From Methanoculleus frigidifontis (GTDB lineage: Archaea; Halobacteriota; Methanomicrobia; Methanomicrobiales; Methanoculleaceae), in NCBI RefSeq assembly GCF_030464345.1, contig NZ_VCYH01000003.1, positions 186,001-250,000 of the forward strand: DNA of 64,000 nucleotides, given 5' to 3'. The position numbers were made by a program, and so were the translations under genes. Below are positions 13,498 to 57,094 of this stretch, one piece after another; positions within the stretch are counted from its first letter, which is position 1, and each line of letters begins with the position of its first letter. Below the pieces are notes generated by a model. The model was not told the origin of the DNA. It worked only from the letters and a program-made list of their open reading frames with translations, and searched no databases.

Positions 13498-14754
13498 TCA
13501 CCTTGACCTCGGGCTTGTGTCGACGCACCAGTCCATCCACTGCGCCGATCTGAGAGCCTTTGCAGTGTCGTCGTCCACACCGTAGACGTTCTTGTAGAAG
13601 TCCAGCAGCCATTCCCCAAGATCGATGTCGGCAAACCGCTCCGGGTACGCCGCCTTGGCGATTACCATCACGTCGATCGGATACTCGAGGCGTTTGTCGC
13701 TGTTGCAGGGTGTCCAGGGAAGGGCATGGACACGGTGATCCTTTACCGCAGAGAGTTCTGCGACGTTCTGGTAGTAGGGTGCCGAGTAGAGCTCTTCAGG
13801 TGGGTGGTAGCCCCATGCAGTACAGAGCACGATGACGTCGGGGTCGAGTGCCAGAATCTGTTCCGTGCTGATGAGCTGGAATGTGCCTGACTCTGATCGG
13901 AAGGCGTTCTTCGCGTGCACGATATCCTCAATCATGTACGACTCGGTCGTTCTCAGACCGTGAGCGGTGCCTGCCGCTCCTTCTGCCCGGTGCTTGGGTG
14001 AGAGGCCGAAGACGAGTATGCTTGGGCGTTCGGATTCGGGTATGTCCAGAGTTCGTTCCTCCACCAGATTGACCTGCGATTCAAGGTAGTCGGAGAGCCG
14101 CTTCGCTTCGCGTTCTTTCCCGAAAACTTCGCCGAGAATGGCGATCTCATCCGATATGATCTCCAGTTCCGAATAGGCGTAACAGTTCGGGCTGTAGAGT
14201 ACGATAAGGGGAATGCCGAGCGATTCAATGGTCTGAATCGTCTTTTGCGTTTTTTCATCGTCTTTGCTCATGAGACTGCCGCTTCCGACCCGGAGAATGA
14301 CAACGTCGGGTTCGAGAGAGGCGACGGTCTCGTAGTTCATCGCTCCACCCCACTCCGCGACAAGTGGCAGGCTCATGATCCGGGGATTCAGGTAGGTGAC
14401 CGGGTTCATCCCGCCTCTGTATTCGTAGGTTCCTCCGTCGACGGTCGGATAGGTATAGTTATAGTTTTTCTGGATGCATTTCGATCCGACGCCGACGATC
14501 GTCTCCTGCTCTCCGAATACGGTCATGACGCTTTCGATGAGGCCGTCGGAGACGGCGACGACGCGCTCGATCTTTACAGGCACCTGCACCGCAATCCCGC
14601 GGGAGTCGATGACCGTCCGGTAGCCGTTTTCGGCAGTATTCTGGCCCGATGTGTCTGCGGACTGTTCCGCCCCGACGCATCCCGAACAGAGAACGAGCAG
14701 AAACGCCAGAAGCAGGGCGATACTTGCCTGGCCATAGATATCACTCACTCGCAT
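13498..14754 (-). CDS. Fe3+/cobalamin-type ABC substrate-binding lipoprotein (paralogue 2)
   Basis: About 418 residues with a signal peptide ending in the lipobox VLCSGC. Conserved FecB/BtuF motifs include RTVIDSRGIAVQVPVKIERVV and EQILALDPDVIVLCTAWGYH. It closely resembles the third paralogue at 17704-18933 (shared NGMNPV, YYQN and a C-terminal QW-x-DW). GGGAGGTGA precedes the ATG at 14754, and the gene overlaps the end of the methyltransferase gene by 10 bp. It is part of the same minus-strand operon as the permease and ATPase. Confidence 0.9.
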   Translation of the reverse strand: MRVSDIYGQASIALLLAFLLVLCSGCVGAEQSADTSGQNTAENGYRTVIDSRGIAVQVPVKIERVVAVSDGLIESVMTVFGEQETIVGVGSKCIQKNYNYTYPTVDGGTYEYRGGMNPVTYLNPRIMSLPLVAEWGGAMNYETVASLEPDVVILRVGSGSLMSKDDEKTQKTIQTIESLGIPLIVLYSPNCYAYSELEIISDEIAILGEVFGKEREAKRLSDYLESQVNLVEERTLDIPESERPSILVFGLSPKHRAEGAAGTAHGLRTTESYMIEDIVHAKNAFRSESGTFQLISTEQILALDPDVIVLCTAWGYHPPEELYSAPYYQNVAELSAVKDHRVHALPWTPCNSDKRLEYPIDVMVIAKAAYPERFADIDLGEWLLDFYKNVYGVDDDTAKALRSAQWMDWCVDTSPRSR

Positions 14755-15590
14755 CCGTTCACCTCCCACCAGAGTTTCACCCGCGTTGCCATCCCGGAGA
14801 GCAGGAGGTCGCCGCCGTTCTGTGAGAGCGCCCCGGCGAGGTAGTTTCTGAGCACCATCTCCTGCTCGGGTGTCGAAACCGCATACTGCTCCTTGAATTC
14901 GGCGACCGCCGCTTCGAGGTTCGGGAACCTGCGGACGTGTTCCATCCGTGTGGTCTCGACGTTCGGGCAGATCCCTATCGAATAGAGGACGTTGAAGAGA
15001 ACATCAGCCTTCGGCCCCCGCCGGTATTCCCTCCCGTGGAGGTGCGACCAGAGGTCGACCATCCCCTGCTCCCAGTTCGTCGTACCGGCAAACCAGAAGA
15101 GGTAGACCCATCGTGAGGATGCTTCGCACATCGCCTCGATCGCCGCCCTGATATCCGGCATCCCGAGTGAATACGACGCGACGACGATGTCGTACGGGCC
15201 TTCGAGATCGGCGGAGGGATCGATCTCCTCCCAGCGTTTCCGCACGATAGAGAGGTTCGATACGCCCTCTTCCGCAGCATATTCACCCATCACCTCGGTC
15301 ATGCCCGCCGCCGGTTCGACCGCGGTGACGTGGGCGGCGACGCCCGCGAGCGGCACCGCCAGGGTTCCCGGCCCGGCACCGATGTCGAGTACCCGTGATT
15401 CGGGCCCGATCGGCAGCCCCTCAATGACGTGACGGATTCTGTCGGGATTTTCACGCGATTGATTCAGAAAACCGCGTGCTTTCTCCCGTGATTCCCAGAT
15501 TGAAGCACATCCGCCGCAGCCGCGGCAGTGTATGTTCTCATCGTACTGTTCCTTCCAGACAGTGTTCCAGTCGATTTCGCTGTATGCCAT
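14745..15590 (-). CDS. Class I SAM-dependent methyltransferase with N-terminal CxxCxxC motif
   Basis: A 281-residue protein inside the FecCD-type transporter operon. The SAM-binding motif is VLDIGAGPGTLAVPLAGVAA followed by acidic VEP. An unusual cysteine triplet, CRGCGGC, occurs at residues 22-28, before the SAM fold, and could bind a metal or an iron-sulfur cluster. The C-terminal half and the final W-x-VNG resemble the methyltransferase at 1805-2674 in the other importer operon. The recurring association suggests a role in modifying a metal-binding ligand or its protein partner. The substrate is unknown. Confidence 0.83.
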   Translation of the reverse strand: MAYSEIDWNTVWKEQYDENIHCRGCGGCASIWESREKARGFLNQSRENPDRIRHVIEGLPIGPESRVLDIGAGPGTLAVPLAGVAAHVTAVEPAAGMTEVMGEYAAEEGVSNLSIVRKRWEEIDPSADLEGPYDIVVASYSLGMPDIRAAIEAMCEASSRWVYLFWFAGTTNWEQGMVDLWSHLHGREYRRGPKADVLFNVLYSIGICPNVETTRMEHVRRFPNLEAAVAEFKEQYAVSTPEQEMVLRNYLAGALSQNGGDLLLSGMATRVKLWWEVNGCE

Positions 15591-15617
15591 TGGTATTCTC
15601 CAATAATTACGACAATT

Positions 15618-16469
15618 TTACGATTCTGCATCTACGTCGGCTCTCATCCTTCCGGTAACGTTCTCGCCTACCGGTATCAGGATCTCCTGGGCTCCGCACC
15701 GCTCTGCAACACAGCGCGGCATTACCATCTGCACCCCTTTCAGCGTTCGAACAGCGCACGCATCCCGGTAGATCATCTCGAGGACACCTTCTGATATCAC
15801 GTCCTTCGGCTCGCCCTCGGCCACGATGGCTCCCTCTCCCACCACCACGACCCGGTCGCAGAACCAGGCAACGTGGTTCGGATCGTGGCTGCAGGCGAGG
15901 AGGGTCTTGCCGTCTTCGGCGACGTCACGCATGATCCGCCAGATCCGCATCTGATTCTGGAAATCGAGTGCGCTCGTCGGCTCGTCCAGGAAGAGTATCG
16001 GCGTATCCTGCGCAATGGCGCGAGCCATCAGAACCATCTGGCGCTGGCCGCCCGAGAGCTGGTTGTAGGGGCGGTCGGCGAATTCGGTGATATCGAGCGC
16101 GGCGAGTGCGTCCATCGCGATCTCCTTGTCGCGCCTTTTCACGCCGAAGAACCCCCCGAGGTGCGGCGTCCTGCCCATGAGAACGACCTCCCGCACGAGG
16201 TAGGGGAAGGGGGGTTTGTGCTCCTGCGGCACGTAGGCGATGAACCGTGCGAGCTGTTCGATCGAGTGCGCCGAGATGTCCTCGCCGCATATCCGCACCG
16301 TGCCTTTTTCGGCCCGCAGGAAGCGCAGGCAGCACTTGAACAGCGTTGTTTTTCCCGACCCGTTCGGACCGAAGAGACCACAGAGTTCACCTTCTCCCAC
16401 CGAGAAGGAAACTCCCGAAAGAACGGGGAAATCCCCGTATTTGAAATGGATATCCTGAACATGCAGCAT
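15618..16469 (-). CDS. FecE/FepC/BtuD-type ABC transporter ATP-binding protein
   Basis: An ATPase of about 283 residues with Walker A GPNGSGKTT, signature LSGGQRQM, Walker B ILFLDEPTSALD and the switch histidine in LACSHDPNHV. The N-terminus MLHVQDIHFKYG is typical of FepC proteins. I choose the ATG at 16469 since GGTGAG lies five bases upstream; a GTG at 16478 overlapping the permease stop is also possible. It energises the permease encoded immediately upstream. It probably imports an iron-, nickel- or cobalt-containing chelate. Confidence 0.93.
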   Translation of the reverse strand: MLHVQDIHFKYGDFPVLSGVSFSVGEGELCGLFGPNGSGKTTLFKCCLRFLRAEKGTVRICGEDISAHSIEQLARFIAYVPQEHKPPFPYLVREVVLMGRTPHLGGFFGVKRRDKEIAMDALAALDITEFADRPYNQLSGGQRQMVLMARAIAQDTPILFLDEPTSALDFQNQMRIWRIMRDVAEDGKTLLACSHDPNHVAWFCDRVVVVGEGAIVAEGEPKDVISEGVLEMIYRDACAVRTLKGVQMVMPRCVAERCGAQEILIPVGENVTGRMRADVDAES

Positions 16470-16474
16470 GGCAC

Positions 16475-17554
16475 TCACCCGAAGATCACTCTGCCCTTAT
16501 GGCGGAGCAGGTAGCAGAGGTAAGGAGCTCCGAGAATGGAAGTCAGAATTCCGACCGGGATCTCGGCCGTCGTCAGTGTCCGGGCGAGCGTATCGCAGAC
16601 GATCAGGTAGCACCCACCCATCATCAGCGACGCCGGGATCACGAACCTGTTGTCCGGCCCGAGGATCATCCTCGCTGCGTGAGGCATCATGAGCCCGACC
16701 CACGCAATGATCCCGACAAGCGAGACAGCGAATGCGGTGATGGCTGTTGCGAACGCAATGACGACAAATTTGTATTTTTCGGGATTCACCCCGAGCGTCC
16801 GGGCTTCCTCGTCGCCCATAGAGAGAATGTTGAGTTTCCACCCGAGCCCCCAGAGGACAGCAAAGCTCACGATGACCGCGGGAGTGAGGAGGAGGACATC
16901 GTTCCAGGTCGCGTAGTAGAATCCGCCCATCAGCCAGAAGACGATCTCTCGCAGTGCCGTGTCGTTTGCGATATATTTGAGGAGTGAGACAAGGGCGGCA
17001 AAGATCGATCCGATGATAACGCCGGCGAGGATGAGGGTGATGATGGGTGTCTCGCCCCGGACACGGGCGAGAATGTAGGCGAGCGTGACGGCAAGTGCGC
17101 CGAAGATGAACGCAGAGATCTGGATCGAGAAGAATACTGCGGGAAAAACGATCCCGAGTGCTGCACCGAAGGCTGCTCCCGACGAAACGCCGAGGATGTA
17201 GGGCTCGACAAGCGGGTTTCTGAAGACGCCCTGAAAGACGGCGCCCGCAATGGCAAGCGCCCCGCCGACCGAGATGGCAAGGATGATCCGCGGTACGCGG
17301 ATATCCCAGATGATTGTGTTGTGGAGTTTCGGCAGAGCGGCTACGTCGCCGAACGTAAGATGGACGAGAATCGTCCGGTAGACATCGGTGATCGTAATGT
17401 CGTACGCCCCCATGACGACGGCGATACAGGCCGTTACAAGGAGAAGGGCGGCAAGAGCAGCGAGAATGGCGATCTTCCTCCCCTCGCCGAATCCTTCGAC
17501 GGGATCATAACCGAGATTGATAAGGATCTGTTTGAAGCCTGTTGATTCTGTCAC
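16475..17554 (-). CDS. FecCD/BtuC-type ABC transporter permease
   Basis: A 359-residue membrane protein with about ten hydrophobic helices and the FecCD hallmarks RVPRIILAISVGGALAIAG, FRNPLVEPYILGVSSGAAFG and VGLMMPHAARMILG. A GTG start is preceded by GGGAGGA. It is the first gene of the minus-strand cluster (permease, ATPase, methyltransferase, binding proteins 2 and 1, CooC-like). A single permease gene must presumably form the homodimer served by all three binding proteins. Confidence 0.93.
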   Translation of the reverse strand: MTESTGFKQILINLGYDPVEGFGEGRKIAILAALAALLLVTACIAVVMGAYDITITDVYRTILVHLTFGDVAALPKLHNTIIWDIRVPRIILAISVGGALAIAGAVFQGVFRNPLVEPYILGVSSGAAFGAALGIVFPAVFFSIQISAFIFGALAVTLAYILARVRGETPIITLILAGVIIGSIFAALVSLLKYIANDTALREIVFWLMGGFYYATWNDVLLLTPAVIVSFAVLWGLGWKLNILSMGDEEARTLGVNPEKYKFVVIAFATAITAFAVSLVGIIAWVGLMMPHAARMILGPDNRFVIPASLMMGGCYLIVCDTLARTLTTAEIPVGILTSILGAPYLCYLLRHKGRVIFG

Positions 17555-17595
17555 GCGGAGTCCTCCCGCCTGTTTCGTGCGGATGTGTCTATGTG

Positions 17596-17626
17596 TGTAG
17601 CAATTTTATTTAAAATTGTAGCAATT
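17596..17626. promoter_or_regulatory. Candidate operator: 18-bp palindrome within direct repeats in the divergent transporter promoter
   Basis: CAATTTTA-TT-TAAAATTG at 17601-17618 is a perfect palindrome. The 10-mer TGTAGCAATT occurs at 17596-17605 and again at 17617-17626, exactly 21 bp or two helical turns apart. On the minus strand the palindrome contains a TTTTAAATA-like TATA box about 50-60 nt before the permease GTG, so a bound regulator would block it. This arrangement fits a metal-responsive repressor site shared by the divergent importer genes. Confidence 0.55.
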
Positions 17627-17673
17627 GATGTGATTAAATTTATTCGAGGTCTCTAATAGTGCAAATCTATCTG

Positions 17674-17683
17674 AATTAAATAC
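17674..17683 (+). promoter_or_regulatory. TATA-like box of binding-protein paralogue 3
   Basis: AATTAAATAC is centred about 26 nt before the second ATG (17704) of the downstream gene. No ribosome binding site is present, suggesting a leaderless transcript starting at or near that ATG. Confidence 0.5.
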
Positions 17684-17703
17684 TACTTGTTCGACATATG
17701 ATT

Positions 17704-18933
17704 ATGAAACGTAACAAGTATATTGCAGGGTTATCTCTGCTTCTCATCTGTCTTTTCGGTGCGATCCTTGTCTGTGGATGCACGGGAACGACTGCCGACG
17801 CATCTGCGGAAGATGCGACCGGTACACGCACAATCACTGATATGCGTGGACGGACGGTGGAGATTCCGGCGACGATCGAACGGGTCGTCTGCATCGACGA
17901 TGGGTTCGTCGAGGGCATTATGTACCGGTTCGGGATGCAGGATCGCGTTGTCGGGCTCGGCGGCGCGTGGATAAAGGACTATACATATTCCTTCGAGGCA
18001 ACGGACGGCGGGACGTATGAGTACAAGAATGGTATGAACCCGGTCAGGTACCTTATCCCCGGCCTTGCCGACCTTCCGGTGCTTGTTGAAAGCGGTACCG
18101 GGATGAACTACGAGACACTCGCCTCCCTCGATCCCGATGTCATCTTCCTCCGCGAGGGGGCGTGGGCGTTCAGCGCAGGATCCGACGAAAATCTTGAAAA
18201 AACGATCCAGACGATCGATTCGCTTGGTATTCCGCTCGTCATCCTCGTCGGTCCGCCATATCAGGAAAGCCCGACCGTGGACAACATCGGTGATGAGATC
18301 CGGCTTGTCGGCGAGGTCTTTTCACGCCAAAAAGATGCCGATCAGCTGGCCTCCTATCTTGACGGACAGATCGGAGAGATCCGAGCACGCACAAAGGATG
18401 TTCCAGAGGACAAAAAGATCCGGATGATACAGTTAGGCCTCTCGCCGCGGGCCCGGCAGGGCGGCGGTGCCGCCATGGCATGGGGTGGCGATACAATTGA
18501 GTCGTACTTCATCGAAGAGATAGCGAATGCAAAGAACGCGTATAAGGGCACCGGGGCGTTTGTCGTCATCTCGACCGAGCAGATCCTGACACTCGACCCG
18601 GATGTGATCGTTCTCCCGACGGCACAGGGCTACCACCCTGCAAGCGAGCTCTACACTGCGCCCTACTACCAGAACTTGCAAGAGCTCAAGGCGGTAAAGA
18701 ACCAGCGGGTCTATGCCCTCCCGTGGACGCCCTATAACTGGGCAAAGCGGCTCGAATACCCGATCGAGGCGATGGTGATCGCAAAGGCCGCGTATCCCGA
18801 CCGGTTTGCGGACATCGACGTCGGTGAGTGGACGCTCGACTTCTACCGGCAGGTCTACGGGGTCGATGAAGCGACGGCGAAAGAACTCCGGTCGGTCCAG
18901 TGGCTGGACTGGATGGAGGAAGAAAACTTCTGA
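17704..18933 (+). CDS. Fe3+/cobalamin-type ABC substrate-binding lipoprotein (paralogue 3)
   Basis: A binding protein of about 409 residues, divergently transcribed from the permease operon. The signal peptide ends in the lipobox LVCGC. RTITDMRGRTVEIPATIERVV opens the binding fold and EQILTLDPDVIVLPTAQGYH marks the second lobe. It is very similar to paralogue 2 along its whole length, indicating gene duplication. The ATG at 17704 matches a leaderless start 26 nt from the TATA box; an ATG at 17698 is the alternative. It has no permease of its own and probably feeds the divergent FecCD/FecE pair. Confidence 0.9.
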   Translation: MKRNKYIAGLSLLLICLFGAILVCGCTGTTADASAEDATGTRTITDMRGRTVEIPATIERVVCIDDGFVEGIMYRFGMQDRVVGLGGAWIKDYTYSFEATDGGTYEYKNGMNPVRYLIPGLADLPVLVESGTGMNYETLASLDPDVIFLREGAWAFSAGSDENLEKTIQTIDSLGIPLVILVGPPYQESPTVDNIGDEIRLVGEVFSRQKDADQLASYLDGQIGEIRARTKDVPEDKKIRMIQLGLSPRARQGGGAAMAWGGDTIESYFIEEIANAKNAYKGTGAFVVISTEQILTLDPDVIVLPTAQGYHPASELYTAPYYQNLQELKAVKNQRVYALPWTPYNWAKRLEYPIEAMVIAKAAYPDRFADIDVGEWTLDFYRQVYGVDEATAKELRSVQWLDWMEEENF

Positions 18934-53777: not shown

Positions 53778-53916
53778 CCGTTCTAATGTGGTTATTGTCT
53801 GTAATTAAGGTTTCCATGAGCTGCAGCGGCCGCCGATCCGGGCGGCACCGCGTGCGCGCCGGACGCGGTGCCGCGTATTTAGACAAACTTAATTGCGCAA
53901 ACATCGAACTGTTTGC

Positions 53917-54813
53917 ATGATGAGAACCGCCCTGTTCTGTGTTACTCTTGTTCTTCTCCTCACCACGGCGGGCTGTCTGCAGGCCACCGACGATGCGGCA
54001 GCCACCCTGGCGGTTACCGACGACACCGGCGTGCAGGCCGTGCTCTCGACCCCGGTTGCACGGGTCGTGTCGCTTGCCCCGAGCGAGACCGAGGTCGTCT
54101 GTGCTCTCGGGATGGACGCTCTGCTCGTCGGAAAGACTGATTACTGCAACTACCCGCCGAAGATCGAAGGCGCGCAGTCGGTCGGCGGGCCGAAGACGCT
54201 CAATGTCGAGAAGATCATCGGGCTGCAGCCCGATCTCGTTCTCGCCACCACGGTGACCGATACCACAAAGATCGAAGGGATACGGGCGATGGGGATCCCG
54301 GTCCTCATCTTCAGGCTCGAATCGCTGGAAGACATCCATCGCAACATCGAAACCGTCGGTACGGTGCTGGACTGTCCGGACGCGGCGGCGGCCCTGGTCG
54401 GCAGGATGCAGGAGCGGGAAGCAAACGTATCCGCCGCCCGGCACCCTGCAGAACCGGCGGCGGTGCTCTACGTCCTCTGGGACGACCCGCTCTACGTGGC
54501 AGGGAACAATACGCTGCAGGACGACCTGATCCGCCGGGCCGGCGGTGTCAACATCATGGCCGATGCTGAGGGCTACGTCGTCGCATCCGATGAAGCGGTG
54601 CTCACCCGGGCGCCGGATGTCATCATCGCCTCCACGTCGCACACGGCCGGTACGGCACCGATCAAGGACCGCCTCCTCGCCAGGTCTGTATTCGCGGATG
54701 TTCCGGCATTCCGGAACGGCCACATCGTCACCATCGACGCCGACCTGGCCAACCGCCCCGGACCGCGGATGGTCGATACGCTGGAGCTCTTCGCCGCATG
54801 CATCAACGCATAA
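53917..54813 (+). CDS. BtuF-like ABC substrate-binding lipoprotein
   Basis: A cobalamin/iron-type binding protein of about 298 residues. Signal peptide MMRTALFCVTLVLLLTTAGC ends in a lipobox. RVVSLAPSETEVVCALGMDA is the typical BtuF N-lobe and FADVPAFRNGHIVTIDADL the C-lobe. A CTTAATT box 26 nt before the ATG at 53917 indicates a leaderless start. It is followed by the permease and a fused ATPase. The context does not decide between cobamide and another chelate; cobamide import is plausible. Confidence 0.9.
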   Translation: MMRTALFCVTLVLLLTTAGCLQATDDAAATLAVTDDTGVQAVLSTPVARVVSLAPSETEVVCALGMDALLVGKTDYCNYPPKIEGAQSVGGPKTLNVEKIIGLQPDLVLATTVTDTTKIEGIRAMGIPVLIFRLESLEDIHRNIETVGTVLDCPDAAAALVGRMQEREANVSAARHPAEPAAVLYVLWDDPLYVAGNNTLQDDLIRRAGGVNIMADAEGYVVASDEAVLTRAPDVIIASTSHTAGTAPIKDRLLARSVFADVPAFRNGHIVTIDADLANRPGPRMVDTLELFAACINA

Positions 54814-55820
54814 ATCCCCTGTGGATGTATCTCGGCTGTTCTGTGCTCCTTCTGGCCAGCGCGGTTCTTGCGGTCTGCATCGGGGAGTCGCCGATAGACT
54901 GCCGGACGGTGTTTGCGATCGTCGCCGCCCACCTGCTGGACCCCGGAGCCGGATATGCCACAGCGGACGAGACGATCATCATGCTCATCCGGATCCCGCG
55001 GGTGATTCTCGCCGCGTTCGTCGGGGCGAGCCTCGCCGTATCCGGCGCGGTGCTTCAGAGCCTCTTCCGCAATCCCATGGCCGATCCGTTCATCCTCGGC
55101 ATCTCGAACGGTGCCGCGCTCGGCGCCTCTGCAGTCCTGCTCTACGGTGTTTCGTTCGGCCTCGGCCTCTTCAACCTGCCGCTGGCGGCGTTCGTCTCCG
55201 GGACAGTGACGATCCTGCTGGTCTACGAGCTGGCGCGGACCGGGAACCGGGTGGCGACGAATACCCTCCTCCTTTCCGGGATAGCCGCATCGGCGTTTAT
55301 GTCCGCCTGCACTTCTTTTCTGCTCTTCGTGTCGAACGAAAACCTCCACCAGGTCATATTCTGGATGATGGGCGGCTTTGCCGGCCGGACCTGGGAGCAC
55401 GTCGTCATGCTGCTGCCGTTTACCCTGCTCGGCGTCGGCGTCTTCCTGACTCTTGCCCGTCCCCTGAACGCGCTGATGTTCGGGGAGGAGTCGGCGCTCT
55501 ACCTCGGCGTGCGGGTCGAGCGGCTGAAGAAGATCCTGCTCGTCGTATCGGCGGTCGTCACCGGAGCAGCGGTTGCGGTGAGCGGGATCATCGGGTTTGT
55601 GGGGCTGATCGTCCCGCACATCGTCCGGCTCATCGCCGGATCCGACCATCGCGTCCTGCTGCCGCTCTCGGTCCTCATCGGTGCGACGTTCCTCATCCTC
55701 GCCGATCTCCTGGCGCGGCTCGTCATCGCTCCGGCGGAACTTCCTATCGGCGTCATCACCGCGCTCTGCGGTGCCCCGTTCTTTGTCTACCTCCTGCGGT
55801 CGCGGCGGGGTGCGGCATGA
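54798..55820 (+). CDS. BtuC/FecD-type ABC permease
   Basis: A 340-residue permease with about ten helices and FecCD motifs RIPRVILAAFVGASLAVSGA, LFRNPMADPFILGISNGAAL and VGLIVPHIVRLIAG. It begins 16 bp before the binding-protein stop. The stop overlaps the ATPase ATG (ATGA). It forms the homodimeric channel of the importer. Confidence 0.93.
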   Translation: MHQRINPLWMYLGCSVLLLASAVLAVCIGESPIDCRTVFAIVAAHLLDPGAGYATADETIIMLIRIPRVILAAFVGASLAVSGAVLQSLFRNPMADPFILGISNGAALGASAVLLYGVSFGLGLFNLPLAAFVSGTVTILLVYELARTGNRVATNTLLLSGIAASAFMSACTSFLLFVSNENLHQVIFWMMGGFAGRTWEHVVMLLPFTLLGVGVFLTLARPLNALMFGEESALYLGVRVERLKKILLVVSAVVTGAAVAVSGIIGFVGLIVPHIVRLIAGSDHRVLLPLSVLIGATFLILADLLARLVIAPAELPIGVITALCGAPFFVYLLRSRRGAA

Positions 55821-57094
55821 ACCGGCTCGACGTGAACGCCGTCGGGTATGCCTTCGGCAGCAAGACCGTTCTCGACGGCGTCAGCATGACCTGCGCCGAG
55901 GGGGAACTCGTCGGTGTCGTGGGGCCGAACGGCTGCGGGAAGACGACGCTGATGCGGTGCATGGCGGGGTATCTTGTTCCGGATGCCGGCTCGATCGCGT
56001 ACAACGGCCGCCCGCTCCGGGATCTCCCGCCGCGTGAGTGCGCCCGGATACGGGCGGTCGTGGAGCAGCAGCTCGTAACGCCGTTCGACTTCTCGGTCTA
56101 CGAGTACGTGATGCTCGGCAGGACACCGTATCTCGGCCGGTTCGGCTCGGAGACTACGGAGGATCACCGCTATGTCGAGGATGCGCTCGGTCTGACCGGG
56201 AGTTCTCCTTTCCGCGACCGGCTGATAGGCACCCTCTCCGGCGGCGAACTGCAGCGGGTGATGATCGCCCGGGCGCTTGCCCAACGCCCCGGGATTCTCC
56301 TGCTGGACGAGCCGACATCGCACCTCGATGTCCGGTACCGGCTTGAGATCATGCACCTGCTCCGCGACCTCGGCGGTGAGCGGGCCGTCGTCGCGGTTCT
56401 CCACGACATCAATGATGCCTATGCCTTCTGCGACCGCGTGCTGCTCCTGCGGCAGGCGAAAGCGGTCGCGTTCGGGCCGCCTGCAGAAGTCCTCACGGCC
56501 GGTGCGCTCAGCGATGTCTTCGGTGTCGTCGCACACCCGCTGGAGCATCCCGGGACGCCTGCTCCTGTGCTGTCGTTCACCCTGCCGACGCCCGTCCGCC
56601 GCAGACGGGCAGGACGCATCGTCGTCATCGCCGGGGGCGGCTCTGGGCGGCATGTCATCGCGTCGCTGGTGCACGAAGGCTATGATCTGCGGGTGGGCGT
56701 TCTGAACGAGGGCGACCGCGACCTCGAGCTTGCCCGTTCACTTGGGTGCCCGGCGCTGACGGAACCGCCGTTCTCCCGGATTGGGCAGGGCAGCCTGGAT
56801 GCGCTCCGGGACTGGTGCATGGATGCCGACGCGATCGTGCTCGCGGCGATGCCGGTCGGCGAGGGAAACCTCGGCAACCTCGTCGTCGCGGAGGAGCTGC
56901 TCGGCACAAAGCCCCTGGTGCTCTTCGCCCGCGATCAGACCTTCGGGTGCCTCGATTTCACCGGGGGCCGCGGCGAAGAGGCATACCGGTCCGTTGCACA
57001 GGGCGCTCCGGTCGCATCGTCGGTCGGGGAGCTGCTCGGGCTGCTCGAACGGGAGATCCCAAAGGCGCCTTCGCTCTCCGGTGCGGAGGAGTGA
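55817..57094 (+). CDS. BtuD/FecE-type ATPase fused to a C-terminal Rossmann-like domain
   Basis: A 425-residue protein. Residues 1-255 are a normal importer ATPase: Walker A GPNGCGKTT (36-44), signature LSGGELQR, Walker B ILLLDEPTSHLD and VLHDINDAYAF. From about residue 258 a second domain starts RIVVIAGGGSGRHVIASLVH and GYDLRVGVLNEGDRDLELAR, then VLAAMPVGEGNLGNLVVAEE, a nucleotide-binding-like alpha/beta fold not found in standard BtuD. It may sense or modify the imported ligand or couple import to metabolism. The ATG overlaps the permease stop. Confidence 0.88.
   Translation: MNRLDVNAVGYAFGSKTVLDGVSMTCAEGELVGVVGPNGCGKTTLMRCMAGYLVPDAGSIAYNGRPLRDLPPRECARIRAVVEQQLVTPFDFSVYEYVMLGRTPYLGRFGSETTEDHRYVEDALGLTGSSPFRDRLIGTLSGGELQRVMIARALAQRPGILLLDEPTSHLDVRYRLEIMHLLRDLGGERAVVAVLHDINDAYAFCDRVLLLRQAKAVAFGPPAEVLTAGALSDVFGVVAHPLEHPGTPAPVLSFTLPTPVRRRRAGRIVVIAGGGSGRHVIASLVHEGYDLRVGVLNEGDRDLELARSLGCPALTEPPFSRIGQGSLDALRDWCMDADAIVLAAMPVGEGNLGNLVVAEELLGTKPLVLFARDQTFGCLDFTGGRGEEAYRSVAQGAPVASSVGELLGLLEREIPKAPSLSGAEE

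Follow-up and report, generated by a model that had tools for sequence, protein, structure and literature searches.

When the ATPase of an ABC importer continues far beyond the end of its nucleotide-binding domain, the question arises of what the additional part is and whether it plays a role in transport. Such a protein is encoded in the window, the 64,000-nucleotide stretch of Methanoculleus frigidifontis DNA analysed here, where a stop-free open reading frame on the forward strand (55817-57094) translates into 425 amino acids between an ATG at 55817 and a stop codon at 57092-57094. This ATG shares bases with the stop codon of a FecCD permease gene (54798-55820), and the permease start (54798) in turn lies within the tail of a binding-protein gene (53893-54813). 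The layout of the three genes, and of the ATPase itself, is as follows.

53893-54813, + strand: BtuF-like periplasmic binding protein of 306 aa (Pfam Peripla_BP_2, PF01497, 7.6e-42)
54798-55820, + strand: BtuC-like FecCD permease of 340 aa (Pfam FecCD, PF01032, 1.2e-97)
55817-56581, + strand: ABC ATPase (nucleotide-binding) domain, residues 1-255 (Pfam ABC_tran, PF00005, 7e-31, over residues 19-168)
56582-56614, + strand: short basic, Arg-rich linker LPTPVRRRRAG, residues 256-266, between the ABC match and the extension-profile match
56615-57091, + strand: C-terminal domain, predicted to be Rossmann-like, residues 267-425, ordered to about residue 413 (extension profile, 1.5e-54)
56621-56623, + strand: V269 at the start of the extension's first strand, a His in 99% of relatives (alignment of 107 relatives)
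56633-56647, + strand: glycine loop G273-G277 following strand 1, with G273, G275 and G277 conserved at 98-100% (alignment)
56705-56722, + strand: N297-x-x-D300-x-D302 motif after strand 2, conserved at 96-100% (alignment)
56858-56878, + strand: G348-x-G350-N351-L-x-N354 after strand 4, with Gly and Asn conserved at 97-100% (alignment)

The ABC domain is complete, with the Walker A (GPNGCGKT), signature (LSGGE), Walker B (LLLDEP) and H-loop (LHD) motifs all readable in the sequence, and, as its neighbouring genes encode a FecCD permease together with a binding protein, the protein is an importer ATPase of the FecE/BtuD type. The binding protein and the permease also match the NCBIfam models for BtuF (NF002894, 5.5e-29) and BtuC (NF007081, 1.3e-96), in both cases under the model's cut-off. 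The preliminary description had likewise recognised a complete BtuD/FecE-type ATPase ahead of an extra domain, and residues 1-255 bear this out. The extra domain also exists, although its start had been placed at base 56590, which is about 8 codons early because RIVVIAGGGSGRHVIASLVH begins at residue 267, corresponding to base 56615.

Both alignment and structure prediction indicate that the extension is a domain in its own right. It can be aligned across 107 homologous fused proteins, in which its mean pairwise identity is 45.9% compared with 51.7% for the ATPase domain, and the divergence of the two parts is correlated (r = 0.86); to judge from these alignments, the extension is under constraint and is not a chance tail of the open reading frame. 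AlphaFold2 predicts one compact alpha/beta domain for the window extension (mean pLDDT 91.4, pTM 0.86) and models the extension of a relative with a mean pLDDT of 94.9, strands and helices alternating in both models and Rossmann-like proteins appearing among the top fold matches of each. The predicted fold is Rossmann-like, and the extra domain that had been proposed after the ATPase, here placed at about 159 residues, can be regarded as real. Ten positions, namely G273, G275, G277, N297, D300, D302, P318, G348, N351 and N354, are invariant in the alignment, and in the predicted model such residues are concentrated in strand-end loops, the usual position of ligand sites in Rossmann-like proteins. 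What had been read as a glycine-rich dinucleotide-binding pattern is indeed a glycine-rich loop, but the classical GxGxxG spacing is not kept, as the sixth position of G273-G-G275-S-G277-R278 is an Arg. By the same alignment the window copy is a divergent member, lacking the His conserved in 99% of its relatives.

Constant fusion to the ATPase, together with divergence in step with it, would also suit a purely structural part that stabilises the ATPase dimer or the whole complex without any ligand. Such a role is considered quite unlikely, given that invariant residues in strand-end loops are typical of Rossmann ligand sites, whereas a mere scaffold would need none.

Fold searches with the two models returned many Rossmann-like proteins at TM-scores near 0.5 and pointed to no single family. 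A glycosyltransferase, SDRs, KtrA, DprA and biliverdin reductase were among the matches of the second search; the structural neighbours include proteins that bind nucleotides or NAD(P), one of them being the regulatory domain of KtrA with a TM-score of 0.63 by target length. Several more specific assignments were rejected. For the first model, the FtsZ/tubulin GTPase domain ranked highest in the fold search (1.9e-4), yet its hhalign probability is 0.1%, and that of a UbiX-type flavoprotein is 1.8%. A fusion with CbiZ was discarded, the extension having no PF01955 match and the genome's CbiZ being located elsewhere. Diacylglycerol kinase (PF00781) was matched by only 2 of 15 members at E 0.02-0.2, under the cut-off, while the matches to shikimate dehydrogenase and ketol-acid reductoisomerase (E 0.003-0.08) covered the first strand-helix-strand only and were lost with a deeper profile. 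A viral fold library searched with the extension yielded nothing at E<=0.001, no Pfam model covers the domain of about 155 residues, and no solved structure was found for it.

The best sequence lead, and a weak one, is SLOG cluster 4 (PF18306), the Pfam family with the most member matches (4/75, best 7e-5). It has been considered whether the extension could be a remote SLOG (LOG/DprA/Moco-carrier-like) superfamily protein that binds a nucleotide or an NAD-derived ligand, a proposal about ancestry and type of ligand that does not conflict with a sensory role. In a pairwise hhalign comparison with cluster 4 (P=0.0012), the two are collinear via the CGGxxG, GVL and GxG(T/N)L motifs, and DprA occurs at rank 41 in the second fold search. 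However, the hhalign probability is only 19%, SLOG proteins are not ranked first by the fold searches, and the extension lacks the strand and helix with which the SLOG fold begins. Kinship of this sort is judged improbable.

The distribution of the extension shows that the window ATPase is far from singular. NCBIfam model NF007082 (PRK09536, corrinoid ABC transporter ATPase), which is 402 positions long, aligns with window residues 3-349 across the domain boundary (E=1.9e-88), matches the extension part alone (E=2.7e-12) and matches 75/75 extension sequences of one alignment (A3). The window ATPase scores 297.3 bits against a curated equivalog cut-off of 537 bits and is therefore not a strict equivalog of this model; in a sample of 295 genomes from the window's phylum, only 4 pass this cut-off. 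The extension is present in 181 of these 295 genomes, and a scan of GTDB contigs recovered 80 loci from Bathyarchaeota, Methanophagales, Thermoplasmatota, Nitrososphaeria, other archaea and a few bacteria (Actinomycetota, Armatimonadota and Aerophobetes). The extension lies in one frame with the ABC domain in 78 of the 80 loci, with BtuC mostly and BtuF often just upstream, the two exceptions being L095, which lies at a contig edge, and L059, where the frame is broken. No natural free-standing extension was found among the 295 phylum genomes and the 80 GTDB loci. Two candidates were set aside, namely L059, in which the frame break falls between the ABC domain and the extension, and G157, in which the gene is interrupted by N and adapter-like sequence and the candidate does not represent a natural gene; in the latter assembly (L195:1669-2820), the N and the adapter-like sequence (reading LSLIHIS) are situated exactly between the two domains. 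A plasmid search with the extension produced a single weak match, itself an annotated ABC ATPase.

The statement in the preliminary description that no standard importer ATPase has such a domain is thus wrong, since the fused architecture, which is part of NF007082, is common across archaea and some bacteria. The possibility had also been raised there that the domain is a known, common C-terminal extension with an assigned function. Known and common it is, but no function was found for it in Pfam, PHROGs, NCBIfam or the searched literature, apart from the original publication on the corrinoid transporter of Halobacterium. The window ATPase adds a somewhat divergent member to an architecture that is known and widespread but functionally unexplained.

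Within the window's genome, only one of six FecCD-type importers carries the extension. A second FecBCD-type importer, in which the extension is absent, is located in the window itself (13498-18933), in a region that also has two binding proteins and includes the following features.

14745-15590: methyltransferase-like gene
15618-16478: ordinary ATPase of 286 aa, extension absent
16475-17554: permease

In a tree of ATPase domains, the window ATPase belongs to a small divergent group with L003, L004 and L011 (four rows, support 100/100) and stands apart from the extension-bearing ATPases found in its own family among the sampled genomes (L005, L009 and L022). Because of this grouping outside its own family, and because another genome (G145) has two extension-bearing copies, two paralogous lineages of extension-bearing ATPase may exist. 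The tree, in which extension-less rows are few, requires four label changes, one of them being the frame-broken L059, so that the fusion may have arisen once or several times.

The genomic surroundings of the relatives point to the substrate. One or more cobamide-type genes are found nearby in 48 of the 80 loci, as counted by membership in clusters of which some (e.g., DUF71 and aminotransferases) are broader than cobamide metabolism. The neighbours include CobT, CobZ, CobS, CobY, CobQ, CobD, CobU and DUF71/COG2102, a family that has been linked to B12 salvage (PMC3541065). In four Actinomycetota loci, a cobalamin riboswitch precedes btuF by approximately 100-180 bases. The CobA/BtuR adenosyltransferase gene directly adjoins the ATPase gene in L011 (seen in L202), a member of the window's subclade, as well as in its near relative L013 (seen in L204), and CbiK lies near the ATPase in one of the two. 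Around the window operon itself, neither a recognised cobamide gene nor an Rfam riboswitch match was found, so the substrate of this copy is inferred from its relatives. Its flanks are like those of L004 (seen in L201), both with FBP aldolase/phosphatase-like, small winged-helix-type and cyclo-ligase-like genes, names that were read from the sequence, with a Pfam match for the small gene alone. Since relatives adjoin cobamide genes, including CobA/BtuR, and riboswitches occur in four Actinomycetota operons, the importer is very probably one for corrinoids and the window ATPase a corrinoid-type BtuD; the link to cobamide salvage suggested at the outset is plausible on the same grounds.

Other elements were also observed near extension-bearing importers. 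Xylose-isomerase-like TIM-barrel genes (PF01261) occur at L203:7919-8662, where the gene sits between the ATPase gene and a binding-protein gene, and at L200:14768-15478. In addition, a c-di-GMP-II riboswitch (L081:84-167) is located near a corrinoid importer operon on an Actinomycetota contig.

The adjacency of CobA/BtuR in two relatives bears on the main rival to a sensory role, namely enzymatic processing of the incoming corrinoid. The extension would then be an enzyme, or part of one, that couples import to salvage, for example through NAD(P)H- or nucleotide-dependent reduction or through hand-over to the adenosyltransferase, CobA/BtuR being an enzyme that requires a reduced corrinoid. A Rossmann-like fold with NAD(P)-dependent reductases (biliverdin reductase and SDRs) among its structural neighbours is consistent with catalysis, as are the invariant polar residues N297, D300, D302, N351 and N354. 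Nevertheless, the absence of GxGxxG spacing argues against it, as do dehydrogenase-family profiles, which gave no match above noise, and the failure to find a natural free-standing version such as might be expected of an enzyme. Processing of this kind therefore appears unlikely.

The reading preferred here, with a probability of roughly 50%, is that the protein is the BtuD of a corrinoid importer and that the extension is a ligand-binding domain regulating import. A sensory role is favoured because the extension invariably forms one covalent chain with the ATPase, because its genomic company is cobamide synthesis and salvage, and because importers with extra ATPase domains use those for feedback, as documented for the regulatory C-terminal domains of the ATPases of MetNI and ModABC (PMC10710835). 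It is envisaged that the C-terminal Rossmann-like domain of this BtuD, which is encoded with its binding protein and permease, would bind a small ligand in a predicted cleft lined by the invariant glycine loop and the N-x-x-D-x-D and GxGNLxN motifs, the ligand probably being a nucleotide, a compound that bears one, or a corrinoid. Occupancy by the cytoplasmic ligand would then slow or permit ATP-driven import, as in the C-terminal domains of MetN and ModC. Regulation by ligand occupancy is proposed by analogy with these transporters, at slightly less than even odds. A wider proposal, more tentative and on the whole rather doubtful, is that the extension represents an undescribed ligand-sensing family, possibly a distant branch of SLOG, through which the B12 importers of archaea and some bacteria might detect a cobamide, a precursor or a nucleotide in the cytoplasm and directly control uptake.

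If sensing is true, B12 import would be subject to post-translational feedback beside the riboswitch where one is present, and ligand binding by the extension would give many archaea a point at which corrinoid import is controlled directly. Among these archaea are methanogens and anaerobic methane oxidisers, both of which depend on corrinoid methyltransferases. As a conserved domain of about 155 residues without a Pfam model, the extension merits an entry of its own as a family, along with biochemical testing.

Comparison with known systems places the window ATPase among several partly similar arrangements. The genome's five remaining FecCD-type importers have a permease of the same family and a homologous ABC ATPase, but lack the extension. 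Enterobacterial BtuD (NF002981, vitamin B12 ABC transporter ATPase) shares the ABC domain and the inferred role in corrinoid import, whereas its model of 253 positions covers only window residues 16-243 and the protein has no C-terminal domain. SLOG proteins (PF18306 and kin) show a weak, collinear likeness in motifs, although the extension is without their first strand and helix. The MetN C2 and ModC C-terminal regulatory domains are likewise fused after an importer's ATPase domain (PMC10710835), with no Pfam match to them in the window extension. In the case of NF007082/PRK09536, the alignment ends at window residue 349 and leaves the end of the extension unmatched, yet the two-part architecture is common to the model and the window ATPase.
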